DNA of 64,000 bases from Lysinibacillus macroides (GTDB lineage Bacteria > Bacillota > Bacilli > Bacillales_A > Planococcaceae), in the NCBI RefSeq assembly GCF_001281525.1, contig NZ_LGCI01000005.1, positions 690,554 to 754,553 on the forward strand. Direction: 5' to 3'. The notes under the pieces are model-generated. The model ran no database searches. It had not been told where the DNA came from and saw only the letters and a program-made list of their open reading frames with translations. Below, piece after piece: positions 54,209-64,000 of this stretch. How positions within the stretch are numbered: position 1 is the stretch's first letter; every line of letters starts with the position of its first letter. A program made the translations under genes and the position numbers.

Positions 54209-54724
54209 ATGTTACGCAATGAACAACGAGAAGAACTTCAAACGGCGATGCGACAAACAAAGGATAAGCGACTATTTGAGCGGTATCAGACTGTATTTCT
54301 ACACCTTGAAGGAAAAAATAACGTTGAAATTGCGATGATCATTCAACGCAATCGAGCAACTGTTGGTGAATATATTAAAGCCTATAAAAAAGAAGGCATA
54401 ACAGGTTTACGCATGGGGATTTCTACAGGTAAACCACATCGTTTGACCATCGAACAACGTGCTGAGTTGGCTGAGATTGTCACAACGAAAACGCCTGCTG
54501 ATGTGGGATTTGCACCGTATACGAATTGGACGCTCGCGTTACTCGTTTCACTCGTGAAACGTGAATGGGCTGTGTCCTATTCTTTACGTGGCATGTCTAA
54601 ATTATTAGAACGCATGCAATTTAGTCATACGCGCCCTACCTATACGTTGGCGAATGCGGACCCAGAAAAGCAAAAAACATTTAAAGAAGAAACATTTCCT
54701 GCTTTAAAAAAAGCTATTGTATGA
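54209..54724 (+). CDS. IS630-family transposase, first reading frame (DNA-binding part)
   Basis: A 171-residue protein with the N-terminal helix-turn-helix of IS630 transposases (RYQTVFLHLEGKNNVEIAMIIQRNRATVGEYIKAYKKEGITGL) and a second HTH-like part (YSLRGMSKLLERMQFSHTRPTY). It ends at TGA 54722, just after an A7 run (54706-54712). The catalytic domain is in the next frame. Confidence 0.88.
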   Translation: MLRNEQREELQTAMRQTKDKRLFERYQTVFLHLEGKNNVEIAMIIQRNRATVGEYIKAYKKEGITGLRMGISTGKPHRLTIEQRAELAEIVTTKTPADVGFAPYTNWTLALLVSLVKREWAVSYSLRGMSKLLERMQFSHTRPTYTLANADPEKQKTFKEETFPALKKAIV

Positions 54725-55247
54725 GGAAATCGATCACCTTCTCTTTCAAGATGAGTCCATGATTCGTGACTACCAAGCCATTCAAAAGTCATGGTTTCCA
54801 AAAGGGAAACAGCGTCAAATCCCCACATACGGTAAGCATCAAGGCGTGAAATTAATCGGTACGTTAAATTATGAAACAGGTGAAATCTTCTGCGTCGAAG
54901 AAGAGAAATACGATGCAGAAGTCTTCCTGCGTTTCTTAGAAAAAGTCATTGCTCATTACCCAAATGGAAAAATTGTCATGATCCTCGATAACGCTCGCAT
55001 TCATCATGCGAAGCTCATTCAGCCTTTTTTAAAGCTGCATCAAAATCGATTACAACTGGTGTTTTTACCACCTTACAGCCCGCAATTGAATTTAATTGAG
55101 GGGCTATGGAAATGGTTGAAAGACAGCGTCATTCATAATGTCTTTTTTTCAAGTACATCGCAAATCAAACTCGCTGTTCGTGAATTTATCCGTTGTCAAA
55201 GTGAAGATACACAAGGTATAATCGACCGACTTTGTGTTAGGTTCTAA
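54717..55247 (+). CDS. IS630-family transposase, second reading frame (DDE domain)
   Basis: A 176-residue catalytic part: first Asp in LLFQDESMIRDY, second in KIVMILDNARIHHA, and Glu in LNLIEGLWKWLKD, with PPYSPQLN in front, as usual for IS630/Tc1-mariner enzymes. The open frame begins at a TTG overlapping the end of the first frame. A fused protein would need a +1 shift or the loss of one A from the A7 tract, which gives ALKKLLYEEIDHLLFQDES. Either programmed slippage or a disabling single-base change explains this. Confidence 0.88.
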   Translation: MYEEIDHLLFQDESMIRDYQAIQKSWFPKGKQRQIPTYGKHQGVKLIGTLNYETGEIFCVEEEKYDAEVFLRFLEKVIAHYPNGKIVMILDNARIHHAKLIQPFLKLHQNRLQLVFLPPYSPQLNLIEGLWKWLKDSVIHNVFFSSTSQIKLAVREFIRCQSEDTQGIIDRLCVRF

Positions 55248-58260: not shown

Positions 58261-58283
58261 AAAATAGTAATGATTACTATTTT
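58261..58283 (+). promoter_or_regulatory. Zur box upstream of folE2
   Basis: AAAATAGTAAT and ATTACTATTTT form a perfect palindrome around a central G, about 70 bp before folE2. It has the layout of the B. subtilis Zur site (AAATCGTAAT-N-ATTACGATTT), with A/T in place of C/G at the fifth arm positions. The same pattern recurs at 59819 and 63840. Confidence 0.85.
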
Positions 58284-58353
58284 CTTTTATGTTACCATAT
58301 AAAAGTATTAAAAATTAACTTAAATTTGATAAGTGTTGAAAAGGAGTTCGTGA

Positions 58354-59220
58354 ATGTTGAAAGTAGATACGATTAATCACAAGCTGAAAACTCTATTTCA
58401 TAGTGATGAAGCTTTTCTAAATCAGCAAGAAGGCTTAAAGGATGTGCAGCAGCAAAAGGGGAATTTTGAGTTTGACATTCAAGAAGTAGGGATATCGAAT
58501 GTCAAATTACCGATTATTTTAAAAGAACAAGAGAGATTACAGACTCCTTTAGCAACAATCAAACTGACAACATCTTTAAAAAGCAATGAGCGGGGTACAC
58601 ATATGAGCCGGCTTATTCAAAATCTCGAACTATATTTAGCAAAGCCATTGACACTGCCATTAGTAAAAGAATTAGTCCAACAAATAGCACGTTCGTTAGC
58701 ACAAGAGCGTGTTGATTTAGCAATTGATTTTCCATGGGTCTTTGACACAACTAGCCCTGTTATGCAATTAACAAGCACGCAGCATGCTAATCTACAGCTA
58801 AACATTAGCTACGATAGTCCCCAGACAATGGAGCTATGGGTTGTGATGAAAATAGGCGTCACAACGCTATGTCCATGCTCTAAAGAAATAAGTATGTATG
58901 GTGCACATAATCAGCGTGGCTTTATTACAATGCAAGCGAAGGTAGATGAAACAGCAATTAGTGACAACTGGAAACATGACTTAAAAAACATTGCTTTATC
59001 GAATGCCAGCGCCCCTATTTATAATGTCTTAAAACGTGAGGATGAGAAATTTGTGACGGAGGAAGCCTATCAAAATCCAAGGTTTGTTGAAGATTTAGCG
59101 CGATTGGTGGCAGCGGATTTGGAAGAAGTACACTGGATTAAACATTATAAAGTGACTTGTGAAAATGAAGAATCCATTCATTTACACAATGCAATTGCTG
59201 TCATTGAAAGCAATAAATAA
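58354..59220 (+). CDS. folE2: GTP cyclohydrolase FolE2 (type IB)
   Basis: A 288-residue GTP cyclohydrolase IB. It makes 7,8-dihydroneopterin triphosphate from GTP, the first step of folate synthesis, and works with metals other than zinc, unlike FolE. The catalytic Cys region is TTLCPCSKEISMYGAHNQRG, with DVQQQKGNFEFDIQEVGI near the N-terminus and the C-terminal VTCENEESIHLHNAIA, all typical. AAAAGGAG precedes the ATG. A Zur box is upstream and dcd follows after 17 bp, so both are made under zinc limitation. Confidence 0.93.
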   Translation: MLKVDTINHKLKTLFHSDEAFLNQQEGLKDVQQQKGNFEFDIQEVGISNVKLPIILKEQERLQTPLATIKLTTSLKSNERGTHMSRLIQNLELYLAKPLTLPLVKELVQQIARSLAQERVDLAIDFPWVFDTTSPVMQLTSTQHANLQLNISYDSPQTMELWVVMKIGVTTLCPCSKEISMYGAHNQRGFITMQAKVDETAISDNWKHDLKNIALSNASAPIYNVLKREDEKFVTEEAYQNPRFVEDLARLVAADLEEVHWIKHYKVTCENEESIHLHNAIAVIESNK

Positions 59221-59237
59221 CGTAAGGTGGGGGATAG

Positions 59238-59774
59238 ATGGTACTTTCAGATCAAACAATACAAAGCTTACTTAATAATGCATCTATGAAAATTCAACCA
59301 TTAGGAACAAAGCAAATACAACCTGCTTCTGTCGATTTAAGATTGGGTAATCATTTTTTAAAGGCTATGCCTAATGAAGATAATTGCTTTAATATTGCTC
59401 AAGCAATGGCGTATGAAGAAATAATAGCAGAGAGGATGACTATCCCTCCAAAATCCTTCCTGTTAGCGACAACGAAAGAATATATAGAGTTGCCGAATTT
59501 TTTAACAGCCTTTGTGGAGGGAAGGAGTTCTATAGGAAGAATGGGCTTATTTATTCAAAATGCTGGCTGGGTTGATCCTGGCTTTGCGGGGCAAATCACG
59601 CTGGAATTATTTAATGCCAATGATACAGCAGTCGTTATAGAAGAAGGGATTCGAATTTGCCAGCTCGTCTTTGTTAAAACAGATCTACCTGTTGCAAATG
59701 CATACAATGGAAAATACAAATATCAAAAGAATGCAGTAGGCAGCAAAATTTATTTAGATCAAGATAGAGAATAA
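59238..59774 (+). CDS. dcd: dCTP deaminase (Dcd/DUT family)
   Basis: A 178-residue member of the trimeric dCTP deaminase family. The hallmark is FVEGRSSIGRMGLFIQNAGW followed by VDPGFAGQITLELFNAN, with IQPASVDLRLGNHF at the N-terminus; the catalytic Glu lies in the LELFN segment. Dcd turns dCTP into dUTP (some members go on to dUMP) and needs no zinc for catalysis, whereas the usual Bacillus route uses a zinc-dependent dCMP deaminase. It is cotranscribed with folE2 under a Zur box, which suggests a zinc-sparing role. AGGTGGGGG precedes the ATG. Confidence 0.88.
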   Translation: MVLSDQTIQSLLNNASMKIQPLGTKQIQPASVDLRLGNHFLKAMPNEDNCFNIAQAMAYEEIIAERMTIPPKSFLLATTKEYIELPNFLTAFVEGRSSIGRMGLFIQNAGWVDPGFAGQITLELFNANDTAVVIEEGIRICQLVFVKTDLPVANAYNGKYKYQKNAVGSKIYLDQDRE

Positions 59775-59818
59775 AAACTTGCAATATGATTTGTTTTATG
59801 ATTTACTTTGTAAGTATT

Positions 59819-59839
59819 AAATCGTAATCATTACTATTT
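59819..59839 (+). promoter_or_regulatory. Zur box upstream of the COG0523 row
   Basis: AAATCGTAAT, a central C and ATTACTATTT differ from the Zur consensus AAATCGTAAT-N-ATTACGATTT at one position. It lies 13 bp before the start codon's AAGGAGG. Confidence 0.9.
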
Positions 59840-59852
59840 AAGGAGGTTCCTT

Positions 59853-61049
59853 ATGAAAAAAATACCAGTAACAGTGCTTAGCGGCTATTTAGGTGCGGGA
59901 AAAACAACTATTCTCAATCATATTTTACAAAATGAAAAAAATCTTCGAGTGGCTGTCATTGTCAATGATATGAGTGAAATTAATATTGATGCAGAGCTAG
60001 TGGAAATGGGCAGCGGCATCTCTCGTACAGAGGAGAAGTTTGTGGAGCTGTCAAATGGCTGTATTTGCTGTACATTGCGTGAGGATTTATTAATTGAAGT
60101 ACAGAAATTAGCGGAAAGAGGCAATATCGATTATATCGTTATTGAATCAACAGGGATTAGTGAGCCAATTCCAGTGGCACAAACATTCTCGTATATTGAT
60201 GAAGAATTAGGCATTGATTTAACAGCTACATGCAAGCTAGATACGATGGTGACAGTTGTAGATGCTAATCGTTTTTGGCATGATTTCCAATCTGGCGAAA
60301 GTCTATTGGATAGAAAGGAAGCTGTTGGAGAGTTAGATGAGCGAGATGTTGCCGATTTATTAATTGATCAAATAGAGTTTTGCGATATTCTACTCCTAAA
60401 TAAATGTGATTTAGTAGATGAGGAAGAATTAGAGAAGCTTGAGAATGTCATTCGAACATTGCAGCCTGAAGCTAAAATTATTCGCACGATTAACGGCGAA
60501 ATTGACCCTTCAGAAATATTGAATACCAAACGCTTTGATTTTGAAAAGGTATCAAATTCCGCAGGCTGGTTAAAGGAATTGCAGCTAGGACATGAAAATC
60601 ATACACCTGAAACAGAGGAATATGGTATTAGCTCGTTCACATATACAAGAAGACTACCATTTCATCCAGAGCGCTTTAAAGAATGGGCAGAGCATATGCC
60701 AAAATCAATCGTGAGAGCAAAGGGGATTGTTTGGAGTGCAGCGCATAATGATATCGCTATTCTTTTATCGCAGGCAGGCCCTTCTGTCAATATTAACCCA
60801 GTATCCTATTGGGTAGCTGCTTTACCAAAGCATCAGAAAGAGCAAATACTACAGCAAAATCCCGCCATTCAAGAGGATTGGGATATGGAGTACGGAGATC
60901 GTATGACGAAAATCGTTATTATTGGAATGGATTTACCGAAGGCTGCTATTGTCAGCAGCTTAGATAAGTGCTTATTAACAACGGATGAAATGATGGGGGC
61001 ATGGGACAAGCTTGCAGACCCATTTGGCTGGAAGATTAGTGGTAGATAG
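59853..61049 (+). CDS. COG0523 G3E-family GTPase, ZagA/YciC-like (copy 1)
   Basis: A 398-residue P-loop GTPase. Walker A is SGYLGAGKTT, the zinc-binding CxCC motif is NGCICCTLREDL, and IVIESTGISEPIPVAQTF, NKCDLVDEEEL and the C-terminal CobW_C domain (GISSFTYTRRLPFHPERFKEW) follow. B. subtilis ZagA (YciC) of this family is a Zur-controlled metallochaperone that supplies zinc to FolE. It follows a Zur box and AAGGAGG, and is the first of three family members in a row. It is very similar to the third copy. Confidence 0.92.
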   Translation: MKKIPVTVLSGYLGAGKTTILNHILQNEKNLRVAVIVNDMSEINIDAELVEMGSGISRTEEKFVELSNGCICCTLREDLLIEVQKLAERGNIDYIVIESTGISEPIPVAQTFSYIDEELGIDLTATCKLDTMVTVVDANRFWHDFQSGESLLDRKEAVGELDERDVADLLIDQIEFCDILLLNKCDLVDEEELEKLENVIRTLQPEAKIIRTINGEIDPSEILNTKRFDFEKVSNSAGWLKELQLGHENHTPETEEYGISSFTYTRRLPFHPERFKEWAEHMPKSIVRAKGIVWSAAHNDIAILLSQAGPSVNINPVSYWVAALPKHQKEQILQQNPAIQEDWDMEYGDRMTKIVIIGMDLPKAAIVSSLDKCLLTTDEMMGAWDKLADPFGWKISGR

Positions 61050-61050
61050 T

Positions 61051-61974
61051 ATGCTTGATAAGATAGAAATTGTGATCTTAAGTGGTTTTTTGGGCAGCGG
61101 TAAAACGACATTACTACAAAATTTATTAGCGCAAGAGCAGCAAAGGAATCGTAAAGTTGCTGTCCTGATGAATGAAATAGGGCAGGTATCCATTGATCGT
61201 AACTTATTAAATGACCATACACCTCTTGAAGAAATTATCAATGGCTGTATTTGCTGTACAAGCAAAACACAGCTTGAAAATGCTTTATTAACCCTTTATA
61301 TGCAAGAAAAACCAGACGTAATCTATATTGAGGGCTCTGGCATAGCACATCCAATGGAAATTTATGATGCATGTCTATCACCAGTAATTGCTCAAAATAT
61401 TATAGTTAAAAGCATCATCACTGTAGTAGACGGAAATATATGGTCTGGAAAACATACATTAAGCTTGCGTATCCAAAAATTGCTGGAAGAGCAAATTCGA
61501 TATGCTGATCAAATTGTTATTAATAAAGTAGATTTATTAACAAGTGGGCAGTACAACCAAATTGTAGAAGATACGAAGCAATTAAATCCACATGCTATGC
61601 AACATATGACAACATTTTCAAGATTAAATGTAGTGGACATCATTAATAGGGATCAAAAGAGCCTGTTGAGCCATGAAAAGCTGCATGTAACAGAGCATTT
61701 ACATGTTTCAAGCCTCACTTATACATTTGACAAACCGATTAATCGGGACCTCTTTATAAAATGGTTAGAACAATTGCCTGTAAGTGTTTATCGAATAAAA
61801 GGTTTTCTAAAGTTTTTAGATGATGTAAATAGTATCGCCTTATTTCAATATGCATTTGGTGTACCTTTTTTCTACAGAGAAGAAGTGAATTTACCATTAA
61901 ACCTTGTCATTATTGGTGAAAATTTAGCTAAGGATTTACTAAAGGAACAATTAAATCAGTTAGAGCAATATTAA
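61051..61974 (+). CDS. COG0523 G3E-family GTPase (copy 2, divergent)
   Basis: A 307-residue GTPase with Walker A SGFLGSGKTT, INGCICCTSKTQLE and IYIEGSGIAHPMEIYDACLS (SG in place of STG). NKVDLL is the guanine-specificity motif, and the C-terminal domain is shorter than in its neighbours. It clearly belongs to another branch than copies 1 and 3, so its client is probably different. It starts one base after the previous stop (TAGTATG), so translation is coupled. Confidence 0.9.
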   Translation: MLDKIEIVILSGFLGSGKTTLLQNLLAQEQQRNRKVAVLMNEIGQVSIDRNLLNDHTPLEEIINGCICCTSKTQLENALLTLYMQEKPDVIYIEGSGIAHPMEIYDACLSPVIAQNIIVKSIITVVDGNIWSGKHTLSLRIQKLLEEQIRYADQIVINKVDLLTSGQYNQIVEDTKQLNPHAMQHMTTFSRLNVVDIINRDQKSLLSHEKLHVTEHLHVSSLTYTFDKPINRDLFIKWLEQLPVSVYRIKGFLKFLDDVNSIALFQYAFGVPFFYREEVNLPLNLVIIGENLAKDLLKEQLNQLEQY

Positions 61975-62000
61975 CATTTGAAGGGAAGTAATCGTGCAGT

Positions 62001-63182
62001 ATGACTAAAATACCTGTTACTGTGCTAAGTGGCTACTTAGGTGCAGGAAAAACGACGATACTCAATCAATTATTAGCAAATAGAGATGGTAGAAAAATAG
62101 CCGTTATCGTCAATGATATGAGTGAAATTAATATTGATTCACAGTTAATTAAGGAGCAGGGCTTTGCTAGAACAACAGAGAAATTAGTGGAGTTATCGAA
62201 TGGCTGCATTTGCTGTACATTACGTGAGGATTTAATGATTGAAGTGGAGAAGTTAGTGGCAGCAGGCGACATTGATTCAATTGTTATTGAATCAACAGGG
62301 ATTAGTGAGCCAATACCTGTCGCTCAAACATTTTCCTATATTGATGAGGAAACAGGCATTGATTTAACACCCCATTGTCGATTAGATGCTATGATTACTG
62401 TAGTAGATGCCAATCGTTTTTGGCATGACTATGAGAGTGGCGAAACATTACTAGAGCGAAAGCAAACAGATGATATTTACGATCAACGTGATGTATCCGA
62501 TTTATTAATTGATCAAATTGAATTTGCGGATATTATTTGTGTGACAAAAGCAGATTTAGTGACGCCTGAATATCTTGAGGTTCTGCAAGCATTTTTGTTA
62601 AAGCTAAACCCAGATGCTGAACAACATATCGTGAAAAATGGCACTATTAAACCTGAATTATTATTAGATCGTCACTTATTTGATTTTGATAAAGCAAGCC
62701 AAGGTGCTGGTTGGATTAAAGAACTGAATGAAGAGCATGTTCCTGAAACTGAAGAATACGGCATCTCTTCATTTGTGTACCGAAGAAGACGACCATTTCA
62801 TCCACAGCGCTGGTATGAGTGGCTAGATCAGTTACCAGTTGAAATTGTTAGAGCAAAAGGCTTCTTTTGGCTAGCTACAAGGGATATACCTGGCATATTA
62901 TCGCAAGCAGGAGCTTCTATTCAATTCCAAGGAGCTGGTGAATGGATTACCGATTTACCTCAAGAGCTTCAGGAGGCTGAATTGAAGGAGGACCCAGCAT
63001 TAAGAGCGCGTTGGGATGAAACATACGGTGATAAGCAAACGGAATTGGTTTTTATAGGCATAGAGCTTGATCGTGAAGAAATTGAAAATGAACTTGATAA
63101 ATGTTTATTAACAGATGCTGAAATGAGGGAGGATTGGCAACAATTTAGTGATCCATTACCTAAATTTATTGTCAGCAATTGA
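62001..63182 (+). CDS. COG0523 G3E-family GTPase, ZagA/YciC-like (copy 3)
   Basis: A 393-residue close paralog of copy 1: SGYLGAGKTTILNQLL, VNDMSEINIDSQLI, NGCICCTLREDLM, IVIESTGISEPIPVAQTF and a C-terminal domain with RRRPFHPQRWYEW. The guanine motif is varied (TKADLV for NKCDLV). The pair probably arose by duplication, with the divergent copy 2 between. GAAGGGAAG precedes the ATG by about 12 bases. A terminator follows. Confidence 0.92.
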   Translation: MTKIPVTVLSGYLGAGKTTILNQLLANRDGRKIAVIVNDMSEINIDSQLIKEQGFARTTEKLVELSNGCICCTLREDLMIEVEKLVAAGDIDSIVIESTGISEPIPVAQTFSYIDEETGIDLTPHCRLDAMITVVDANRFWHDYESGETLLERKQTDDIYDQRDVSDLLIDQIEFADIICVTKADLVTPEYLEVLQAFLLKLNPDAEQHIVKNGTIKPELLLDRHLFDFDKASQGAGWIKELNEEHVPETEEYGISSFVYRRRRPFHPQRWYEWLDQLPVEIVRAKGFFWLATRDIPGILSQAGASIQFQGAGEWITDLPQELQEAELKEDPALRARWDETYGDKQTELVFIGIELDREEIENELDKCLLTDAEMREDWQQFSDPLPKFIVSN

Positions 63183-63185
63183 GGG

Positions 63186-63216
63186 AATGGGCTTTGCATT
63201 AGCAGAGCCCTTTTCA
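63186..63216 (+). terminator. Terminator of the COG0523 row
   Basis: GGGCTTTGC pairs with GCAGAGCCC (one G-T pair) around ATTA and is followed by TTTTC. Confidence 0.88.
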
Positions 63217-63252
63217 TCATGTTGAAAAATAAAGTTGTTCATAAAAGTATAG

Positions 63253-63285
63253 AAGGGGTGATTGTCGTAATGGAAATCACCCCTT
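63253..63285 (-). terminator. Terminator of the SufU-like gene
   Basis: AAGGGGTGATT pairs perfectly with AATCACCCCTT. It lies 18 bp after the stop of the minus-strand gene. Confidence 0.75.
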
Positions 63286-63302
63286 TGCTATTAACATCAT
63301 TT

Positions 63303-63734
63303 TTATGATGATGAAAGAGAAGCGACTAATTTATTGAATGCTTGCCAAGGAAAGAGCACACAATTATGTCTAGCAGGCAATTGATTTAAGTTGGCAAAAG
63401 TATTTAATTCATCCATAGCTTTTTCGTCTATTATCTCATTGCTGATAATTAAGCGATAGAATAGCACCGAGGCGCACTTTACCTCCTCAAAAGTTTTACC
63501 CGTAGCATATTCAATAAATAAATTTGTCGATGCCATACTAAGAGAACACCCTTCTCCTACAAATGAAAGATGAATAATTTTGTCATCAAGAACATGTAAG
63601 TATAATGACATAATGTCCCCACAAGTGGGATTTTTAAAGTTTATCTGGTGTGTATACACCTGAGGCTTATAGCGGTATTTGTAATTTTGAGCCAATGAGA
63701 TAATTTCTGATTTATATATTTGGTCTAAATTCAT
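63303..63734 (-). CDS. SufU-like Fe-S assembly protein
   Basis: A 143-residue protein of the SufU/IscU scaffold family. The metal ligands of SufU are kept: Cys and Asp in NPTCGD, Cys in GEGCSLSMAS and Cys in RHNCVLFPW. In SufU these bind zinc, which takes part in sulphur acceptance from SufS. The context is a zinc-starvation island, and the sequence looks diverged from housekeeping SufU (FPWQAF for the usual LAWKAL type), so this may be a specialised paralog. No sufS, sufB or sufD is beside it. TAGGAGG lies before the ATG. It shares its upstream region with hemB, where a Zur box lies. Confidence 0.82.
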   Translation of the reverse strand: MNLDQIYKSEIISLAQNYKYRYKPQVYTHQINFKNPTCGDIMSLYLHVLDDKIIHLSFVGEGCSLSMASTNLFIEYATGKTFEEVKCASVLFYRLIISNEIIDEKAMDELNTFANLNQLPARHNCVLFPWQAFNKLVASLSSS

Positions 63735-63839
63735 AATAGAATTTCCTCCTAATGAAATAATGGTTAGCTGTAGCCCTTTAAATTAAATTTCTTGCAAATA
63801 TAAAATAATATTGCTACTCTATGATAGTAACATTTTTGA

Positions 63840-63860
63840 TAAACGTAATCATTACTATTT
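63840..63860 (+). promoter_or_regulatory. Zur box between the SufU-like gene and hemB
   Basis: TAAACGTAAT, a central C and ATTACTATTT match 17 of 20 defined Zur positions. It ends 19 bp before the hemB start and lies 105 bp upstream of the divergent SufU-like gene. Confidence 0.82.
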
Positions 63861-63879
63861 GAAAAAAGGAGTTATTTTT

Positions 63880-64000
63880 ATGAATCAATTTAAAAGACAT
63901 CGTCGTTTAAGAGCCTCAAAGGAAATACGTGCGCTTGTACAAGAAACGACGATTGATATAAATAAATTAATCTATCCTTTGTTTGTTGTAGAGGGGGAGA
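63880..64000 (+). CDS. hemB: Porphobilinogen synthase (HemB), N-terminal part cut by window end
   Basis: The first 40 codons read MNQFKRHRRLRASKEIRALV followed by QETTIDINKLIYPLFVVEG, the N-terminus of 5-aminolevulinate dehydratase, which joins two aminolevulinates to porphobilinogen in haem synthesis. AAAAAAGGAG precedes the ATG and a Zur box lies directly upstream. Many HemB enzymes need zinc at a Cys-rich active site; a second, zinc-independent copy under Zur is known in other bacteria. The residues that would decide (around residue 120) are beyond the window. Confidence 0.85.
   Translation, partial: MNQFKRHRRLRASKEIRALVQETTIDINKLIYPLFVVEGE

Follow-up and report, generated by a model that had tools for sequence, protein, structure and literature searches.

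The stretch of DNA analysed here, referred to below as the window, comprises 64,000 nucleotides of Lysinibacillus macroides (G000:C1:690554-754553, in a genome of 4.87 Mb and 15 contigs). Its last 6 kb carry folE2, dcd, three COG0523 GTPase genes, sufU2 and the start of hemB2, together with three palindromes of the type bound by the zinc regulator Zur (Table 1). The first-pass annotation of the window had named folE2-dcd, three COG0523 GTPases and hemB with a divergent SufU-like gene, and family models bear out this gene content, giving FolE2, dCTP deaminase, three CobW/COG0523 GTPases, SufU and the start of HemB. The GTPases do not reach the ZigA equivalog NF038288 (514.6, 108.5 and 501.5 bits in gene order, cut-off 600 bits), and they are therefore called COG0523 proteins, either YciC/ZagA-like or YjiA-like. 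The third GTPase gene is followed by a terminator-like stem, so that three parts can be distinguished in the island: folE2-dcd, a COG0523 unit of three genes, and the divergent pair of hemB2 and sufU2. The earlier grouping of the genes behind three boxes thus holds with some refinement: box 2 heads a single three-gene unit that ends at the stem, and box 3, in the gap that separates hemB2 from sufU2, is closer to hemB2.

Table 1. Features of the island and of other box-associated genes in the same genome
Feature	Position	Strand	Remarks
Zur-type box 1, 5' of folE2-dcd	58262..58282, core 58266-58278 (AGTAATGATTACT)		exact core match; identical in G025
folE2, zinc-independent type GTP cyclohydrolase	58354..59220	+	PF02649 248.7 bits; NF010200 above cut-off
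dcd, dCTP deaminase, possibly bifunctional DCD-DUT	59238..59774	+	TIGR02274 181.2 bits (cut-off 92.8)
Zur-type box 2, 5' of COG0523 operon	59819..59839, core 59823-59835 (CGTAATCATTACT)		exact core match
COG0523 GTPase, YciC/ZagA-like (1)	59853..61049	+	PF02492 and PF07683; GCICC motif in translation
COG0523 GTPase, shorter, YjiA-like	61051..61974	+	PF02492 and PF07683; GCICC motif
COG0523 GTPase, YciC/ZagA-like (2)	62001..63182	+	PF02492 and PF07683; GCICC motif
Terminator-like stem 3' of COG0523 operon	63189..63210	+	2 such sites in the window vs a shuffle mean of 3.2
sufU2, divergent SufU	63303..63734	-	TIGR01994 105.2 bits (cut-off 92.5); four zinc ligands kept, RHNC signature
Zur-type box 3, between sufU2 and hemB2	63840..63860, core 63844-63856 (CGTAATCATTACT)		exact core match
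hemB2, second porphobilinogen synthase, zinc type	63880..64000 (start only)	+	ALAD family; continues to G000:C1:755419
One-cysteine L33	L019:9034-9217 (G000:C13)	-	exact box about 20 bp upstream
Nickel/oligopeptide-type ABC operon	L018:8924-13943 (G000:C11)		two exact boxes 26 bp apart upstream
Box with one core mismatch (AAAGTGTAATGATTACGTTTT)	G000:C1:777952, L020:6004-7965		about 25 bp upstream of an ArsP_1-type permease gene, followed by a DUF1980 gene

Zur-type boxes and the probable regulator

A palindrome of the B. subtilis type, built around GTAATNATTAC, lies close to the start of the island units, and the three palindromes reported earlier are real, each with an exact core. Box 1 stands 75 bp from the start codon of folE2, box 2 is 17 bp from that of the first COG0523 gene, and box 3 is 23 bp from that of hemB2. 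Taken simply as a string, the motif shows no enrichment. Scanning the window for CGTAATNATTACG with up to 3 mismatches gave 20 matches against a shuffle mean of 31, and scanning the genome for MGTAATNATTACK with up to 1 mismatch gave 81 against 181 for the reversed control, so that motif counting by itself was dropped as evidence.

It is the placement of the boxes before genes, and not the frequency of the string, that makes them meaningful. The genome-wide scan proposed in the first-pass annotation returned seven exact cores, all of them located 17–75 bp upstream of a start codon (counted by hand). Five are zinc-linked, standing before folE2, the COG0523 operon, hemB2, znuA (PF01297, 253.7 bits) and a cysteine-poor L33 with a single cysteine (PF00471). 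The remaining two form a double box before the nickel-type ABC operon; these are metal-linked, with at most a putative connection to zinc. In this operon a binding-protein piece matches the Opp5A/NikA nickel model with 607.4 bits (cut-off 600); the binding-protein gene spans two overlapping frames, the first permease is divided into two pieces, and the operon may be broken or misassembled. Three one-mismatch sites were inspected among the matches listed (81 counted): C1:598814 and C8:1085374 fall inside open frames, and the site at C1:777952 is a further Zur candidate. Boxes are also kept near dcd, hemB2 or folE2 in genera other than that of the source.

Three FUR-family genes are encoded in the genome. 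The first is Fur (270.3 bits, cut-off 220), and the best model of the second is PerR (125.4 bits, under the cut-off of 180). The third lies downstream of ABC-3 permease and ATPase genes that resemble znuC-znuB, whose best models are zinc transporters, also under cut-off; by context and elimination, this third gene is the likely zur. Two points argue against the assignment or its consequences: the protein scores best against PerR (88.6 bits, cut-off 180) and only 40.1 bits against the Zur model (cut-off 167), and a box upstream of znuC-znuB-zur was looked for and not found. The absence of a Zur protein, named beforehand as an observation that would overturn the idea of a zinc-starvation island, is thus probably not what the genome presents, although the candidate stays below every NCBIfam cut-off.

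The boxes could instead be read by Fur or PerR, and the island would then answer iron or peroxide. In B. subtilis, Zur sites closely resemble Fur and PerR sites, as stated in the available text of PMC4324032; three FUR-family proteins are on hand here, and the best model of the zur candidate points in the same direction. The genes that follow the exact sites speak for another signal, as they comprise znuA, L33, folE2, COG0523, hemB2 and the nickel-type ABC operon, with no iron or peroxide gene seen at any of the seven, and we regard a Fur or PerR response as very improbable. Zur control of the island is well supported, and appears very likely, on the grounds of the motif, its placement across the genome, the position of a FUR-family gene behind znuC-znuB-like genes, and the retention of boxes in other genera. 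With good confidence, the island can be assigned to a predicted Zur regulon, in which loss of zinc would derepress the three units, including the putatively zinc-free enzymes FolE2 and Dcd.

Zinc linkage of dCTP deaminase genes in Bacilli

The closest solved structure to the island Dcd is the dCTP deaminase 4xjc (residues 1-174, E 3.9e-53), which we take to be the bifunctional enzyme of Bacillus halodurans; we know of no report on zinc regulation of that enzyme. E123 of the island protein corresponds in the alignment to a Glu of 1ogh, in place of which 3gf0 has Gln. By these comparisons, Dcd is possibly a bifunctional DCD-DUT that would convert dCTP to dUMP.

To place this gene in a wider context, 75 Dcd loci were compiled, consisting of 55 of the 58 matches among 398 genomes of the class (leaving out G330, G284 and G316), 6 further loci of the family and 14 loci of Bacillales out of a set of 80, the other 66 not being placeable in that order. 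Three of the eleven family loci (G247, G027 and G251) were left out of the survey. Close and distant Dcd were separated by identity to the protein of the window, at the gap between 47.7% and 37.3%. A locus was called zinc-linked when it had, at a distance of up to 8 kb, a match to COG0523, FolE2, SufU2, ZnuA, ZnuB or Zur, or when a box with no more than 1 mismatch occurred in the 300 bp upstream. By this definition, 23 of the 36 close Dcd loci are zinc-linked, compared with none of the 39 distant ones. Boxes with at most 1 mismatch were also counted in the 250 bp upstream of dcd or of another gene of its run; they occur at 15 of the 23 zinc-linked loci, at 0 of the 13 unlinked close loci and at 0 of the 39 distant loci, the background for this count being 58 such boxes in 1,276,114 bp.

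The layouts vary and include folE2-dcd, a standalone dcd near a divergent folE2, zagA-dcd, dcd beside a YjiA-type gene, and dcd divergent from sufU2. In other genera, Dcd proteins 52-53% identical to that of the window have their own Zur box about 60 bp upstream and folE2 nearby on the opposite strand (G112 and G113; G079 with one mismatch), and Dcd is found near COG0523 and znu-type genes in G146 and at the other G079 locus.

Several smaller observations accompany the survey. In G525, a gene located between dcd and a COG0523 gene (L173:8775-9044) codes for a ribosomal protein of the S14 type and has an exact box. Outside the 75 loci, contigs of metagenome-assembled genomes from Clostridiales or Bacillota (L074, L075 and L082) carry Dcd with ZnuA-, ZnuB- and Zur-like genes at a distance of about 3-6 kb, and L101 and L110 show a weak FolE2 match of 22-23%.

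Dcd could also be an anti-phage dCTP deaminase that would deplete dCTP upon infection. The available part of PMC12088426 mentions that dCTP deaminases of prokaryotes take part in antiphage defence. The island protein gave no match to PADLOC models at E up to 1, it is a full-length Dcd of the metabolic type, and its neighbours are zinc-linked, which makes a role in defence barely credible.

A proposed bypass of the zinc-dependent dCMP deaminase

The genome encodes zinc-enzyme counterparts for four proteins of the island. FolE1 is encoded elsewhere in it; ComEB, the zinc-dependent counterpart of Dcd, is at C8:582721 (274.5 bits, with HAE and PCxxC motifs); hemB1, at C8:700081, adjoins a class-III aminotransferase gene read as hemL; and the SufU1 gene sits between SufS- and SufB-type genes. 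FolE2, Dcd, HemB2 and SufU2 are thus second routes or second copies. According to the available part of PMC12088426, dCMP deaminases of Gram-positive bacteria are zinc-dependent, and both DCD and DCD-DUT deaminate dCTP without zinc; zinc hexamers are described for dCMP deaminases in what is available of PMC10733785. FolE2 and Dcd fit the part of zinc-free counterparts to the zinc enzymes FolE1 and ComEB.

On this basis a mechanism can be outlined. With zinc present, Zur would bind the three boxes and repress; as zinc falls, the three units would be expressed. In the first unit, FolE2 would replace the zinc-dependent FolE1 in folate synthesis, and Dcd would deaminate dCTP without zinc to dUTP, or directly to dUMP if it is bifunctional, and would keep dTTP synthesis running once the zinc-dependent dCMP deaminase ComEB fails. 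In the second unit, the three COG0523 GTPases would direct scarce zinc to chosen clients. The third unit, hemB2 and probably sufU2, would supply second copies with zinc sites, which are probably better served by the GTPases or bind zinc more tightly. What is proposed, in short, is a putative Zur-controlled and zinc-free bypass of ComEB from dCTP to dUTP or dUMP.

A Dcd that serves as a stand-in for zinc starvation would be expected in hosts that still have a zinc-type dCMP deaminase, whereas a Dcd that is the housekeeping route would not require one. Judged by sequence, a dCMP deaminase is present at 22 of the 22 testable zinc-linked loci (21 genomes) versus 4 of the 52 unlinked ones, being missing at the other 48; the zinc-linked locus of Alteribacter (L093) is outside the 22. 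Among these 22, 19 are above the ComEB cut-off, 1 is divergent and 2 are weak matches with HAE and PCxxC. A genome was scored as lacking the enzyme when none of its ComEB matches reached E 1e-20, those two weak cases excepted, and G527, with a ComEB match of 1.1e-7, was counted as lacking it. Weak deaminases were accepted on the linked side only, and the two were inspected because their Dcd is zinc-linked, so the rule leans towards the bypass; leaving them out, the count is 20 of 22. In a haloalkaliphile group in which Dcd is otherwise unlinked, Alkalihalobacterium elongatum nevertheless has an exact box together with ComEB, and 9 of its 11 clade mates are without both.

Further observations weigh against Dcd as a zinc-starvation stand-in and against a uniform zinc-sparing role of the island. 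At 8 of the 23 zinc-linked loci, no box with at most 1 mismatch was found within 250 bp upstream of the dcd run. Unlinked Dcd occurs alongside ComEB in Bacillus sp. FJAT-44742 (close Dcd) and in G040 (distant Dcd), and alongside divergent dCMP deaminases in Paenibacillus cymbidii and G462. The zinc label changes just 3 times on the Dcd tree, and the association between linkage and dCMP deaminase is not significant on independent pairs (3 pairs, of which on average 1.9 agree and none is opposite); with three label changes only, the independent-pair test is powerless, and Fisher p-values are inflated by kinship. HemB2 and SufU2 retain their zinc ligands. Moreover, Dcd is rare in the genus. A standalone Dcd above the TIGR02274 cut-off occurs in 2 of 32 genomes, the cut-off being passed in three (that of the window, G025, and G027, where the open frame has 834 aa), and at E 1e-20 Dcd is found in 10 of 261 genomes of the family. 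Between box 1 and the last COG0523 gene, both included, G025 matches the window with 93.7% DNA identity, the centre base of box 2 being changed and its core still exact. It is without sufU2, box 3 and the start of hemB2, has an additional gap in hemB2, which is broken there, and misses about 5.7 kb of the stretch downstream of the island. Conservation of the gene order across Lysinibacillus, suggested earlier as a check, finds little support in these genomes.

This rarity favours the view that Dcd is a passenger of phage or mobile origin that landed behind folE2 and is cotranscribed with it, with no role in zinc starvation. Such an origin would agree with the transposase-type genes (DDE_3, rve) on both flanks of the island (window 54209-55247; L016 10983-15586) and with the odd frames of some Dcd-like genes of the family, such as that of G027. 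However, of the 36 loci of this Dcd subfamily, 23 are zinc-linked; these come from several families, differ in layout and sometimes have a Zur box of their own, and a mere passenger seems improbable. The zinc-linked bypass stays the preferred explanation for Dcd.

In comparison with known systems, the COG0523 and FolE2 parts of the island are known biology. In B. subtilis it is established that zinc shortage derepresses FolE2 and YciC (PMC5007448, in the text available). The Zur regulon of that species, which includes folE2/yciA, yciB, yciC, znuABC, rpmGC and rpsN2, resembles the island and its genome in box type, FolE2, COG0523, an alternative ribosomal protein and ZnuA; it differs in that dcd, hemB2 and sufU2 are not among the genes given in the available portions of PMC6103462 and PMC5007448. 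The B. subtilis ChIP paper PMC4324032 does not mention comEB, hemB, sufU or a deaminase. Two further studies, one from 2026 on a staphylococcal COG0523 protein under Zur control (PMC13339975) and one on the Zur regulon in Bacillus (PMC6336718), do not contain the term deaminase either. Among the matches listed, no paper on a Zur-controlled dCTP deaminase bypass was found in a search that had most subscription journals and regulon databases outside its reach, the one paper retrieved for dCTP deaminase together with Zur being a chlorovirus review, and the novelty is accordingly provisional. The proposed new element is a zinc-linked and predicted zinc-free route from dCTP towards dUMP that recurs in several families of Bacilli. 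It would explain why some Bacilli keep both dUMP routes, one for zinc-replete and one for zinc-starved conditions, and co-occurrence of the two routes has been raised as a question for eukaryotes (PMC10733785, in the part available). If true, the synthesis of DNA precursors would join the processes protected against zinc shortage.

HemB2 and SufU2 as zinc-keeping second copies

The first-pass annotation had seen in the island a dedicated set of zinc-sparing or zinc-delivery functions. That description suits FolE2 and Dcd on the sparing side and, by family, the COG0523 proteins on the delivery side; it does not suit HemB2 and SufU2, which keep zinc ligands. HemB2 reads DTCICQYTTDGHCG, and with C119, C121 and C129 all present, its classification as a zinc-less type was dropped. 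The closest solved structure, 1w1z, is without these cysteines, and the next, 5lzl, has them. HemB matches occur in 256 of 261 genomes of the family, with more than one match in 7 (G000, G014, G025, G043, G046, G112 and G146). Among the matches listed, the only near relative of the window HemB2 is that of G146, about 79-80% identical, with the same three cysteines, a Zur-type box upstream and a divergent folE2; the next best is at most 66%, and the second matches of G014, G025, G043, G046 and G112 rank below.

As for SufU, 25 genes were found in 20 genomes, and a second copy in 5 of them lies in a zinc island in every case. The alignment covered 13 of the 20 housekeeping copies and six island copies (the five and that of Alteribacter). 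All six island copies read RHNC, versus RIKC (12) or RFKC (1) in the housekeeping copies. SufU2 belongs to the same family as the SufU of 5xt5, a zinc-dependent sulfurtransferase, whose C, D, C and C positions are presumably the zinc ligands; these positions are kept in all 19 aligned proteins, the six island copies included, and SufU2 as a zinc-less substitute was likewise rejected.

Despite these ligands, both proteins might be zinc-sparing, for instance with another metal in the Cys sites. They stand behind the same type of box as FolE2, and a HemB2 paralogue of Pseudomonas putida has lost the cysteines (Haas 2009; PMC2770081, available part), from which the island HemB2 differs by having kept them. 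As C119, C121 and C129 are kept both here and in G146, and C, D, C and C in 6 of 6 island copies of SufU2, we consider a change of metal unlikely. The same available part of Haas 2009 describes Zur-linked clusters that combine COG0523 with FolE2 and also with zinc-enzyme paralogues, one of which is HemB; some of these paralogues keep zinc sites, as seen here. It lists nine enzyme families, from gamma- and beta-proteobacteria, and Dcd and SufU are not among them; the main text does not mention dcd, sufU or iscU. Among the matches listed in the literature search, no paper on SufU under Zur was found, judged by title.

We infer that HemB2 and SufU2 are favoured zinc clients of the COG0523 GTPases. 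In a broader and more tentative form, possible rather than probable, zinc shortage would threaten dTTP in many Bacilli and be answered by a Zur-controlled Dcd(-dUTPase), with SufU2 and HemB2 as privileged COG0523 clients that would give Fe-S clusters and haem the first call on zinc. The two zinc-keeping enzymes are in any event named candidate clients for COG0523 proteins, and as such are directly testable.

A last observation concerns the surroundings of sufU2 in G470 (L174:6100-7839, minus strand). There it shares a row with two other genes, one encoding a metallo-beta-lactamase fold and the other small and weakly similar to 2Fe-2S ferredoxins of the thioredoxin type; the row is divergent from dcd across a box with 2 mismatches.

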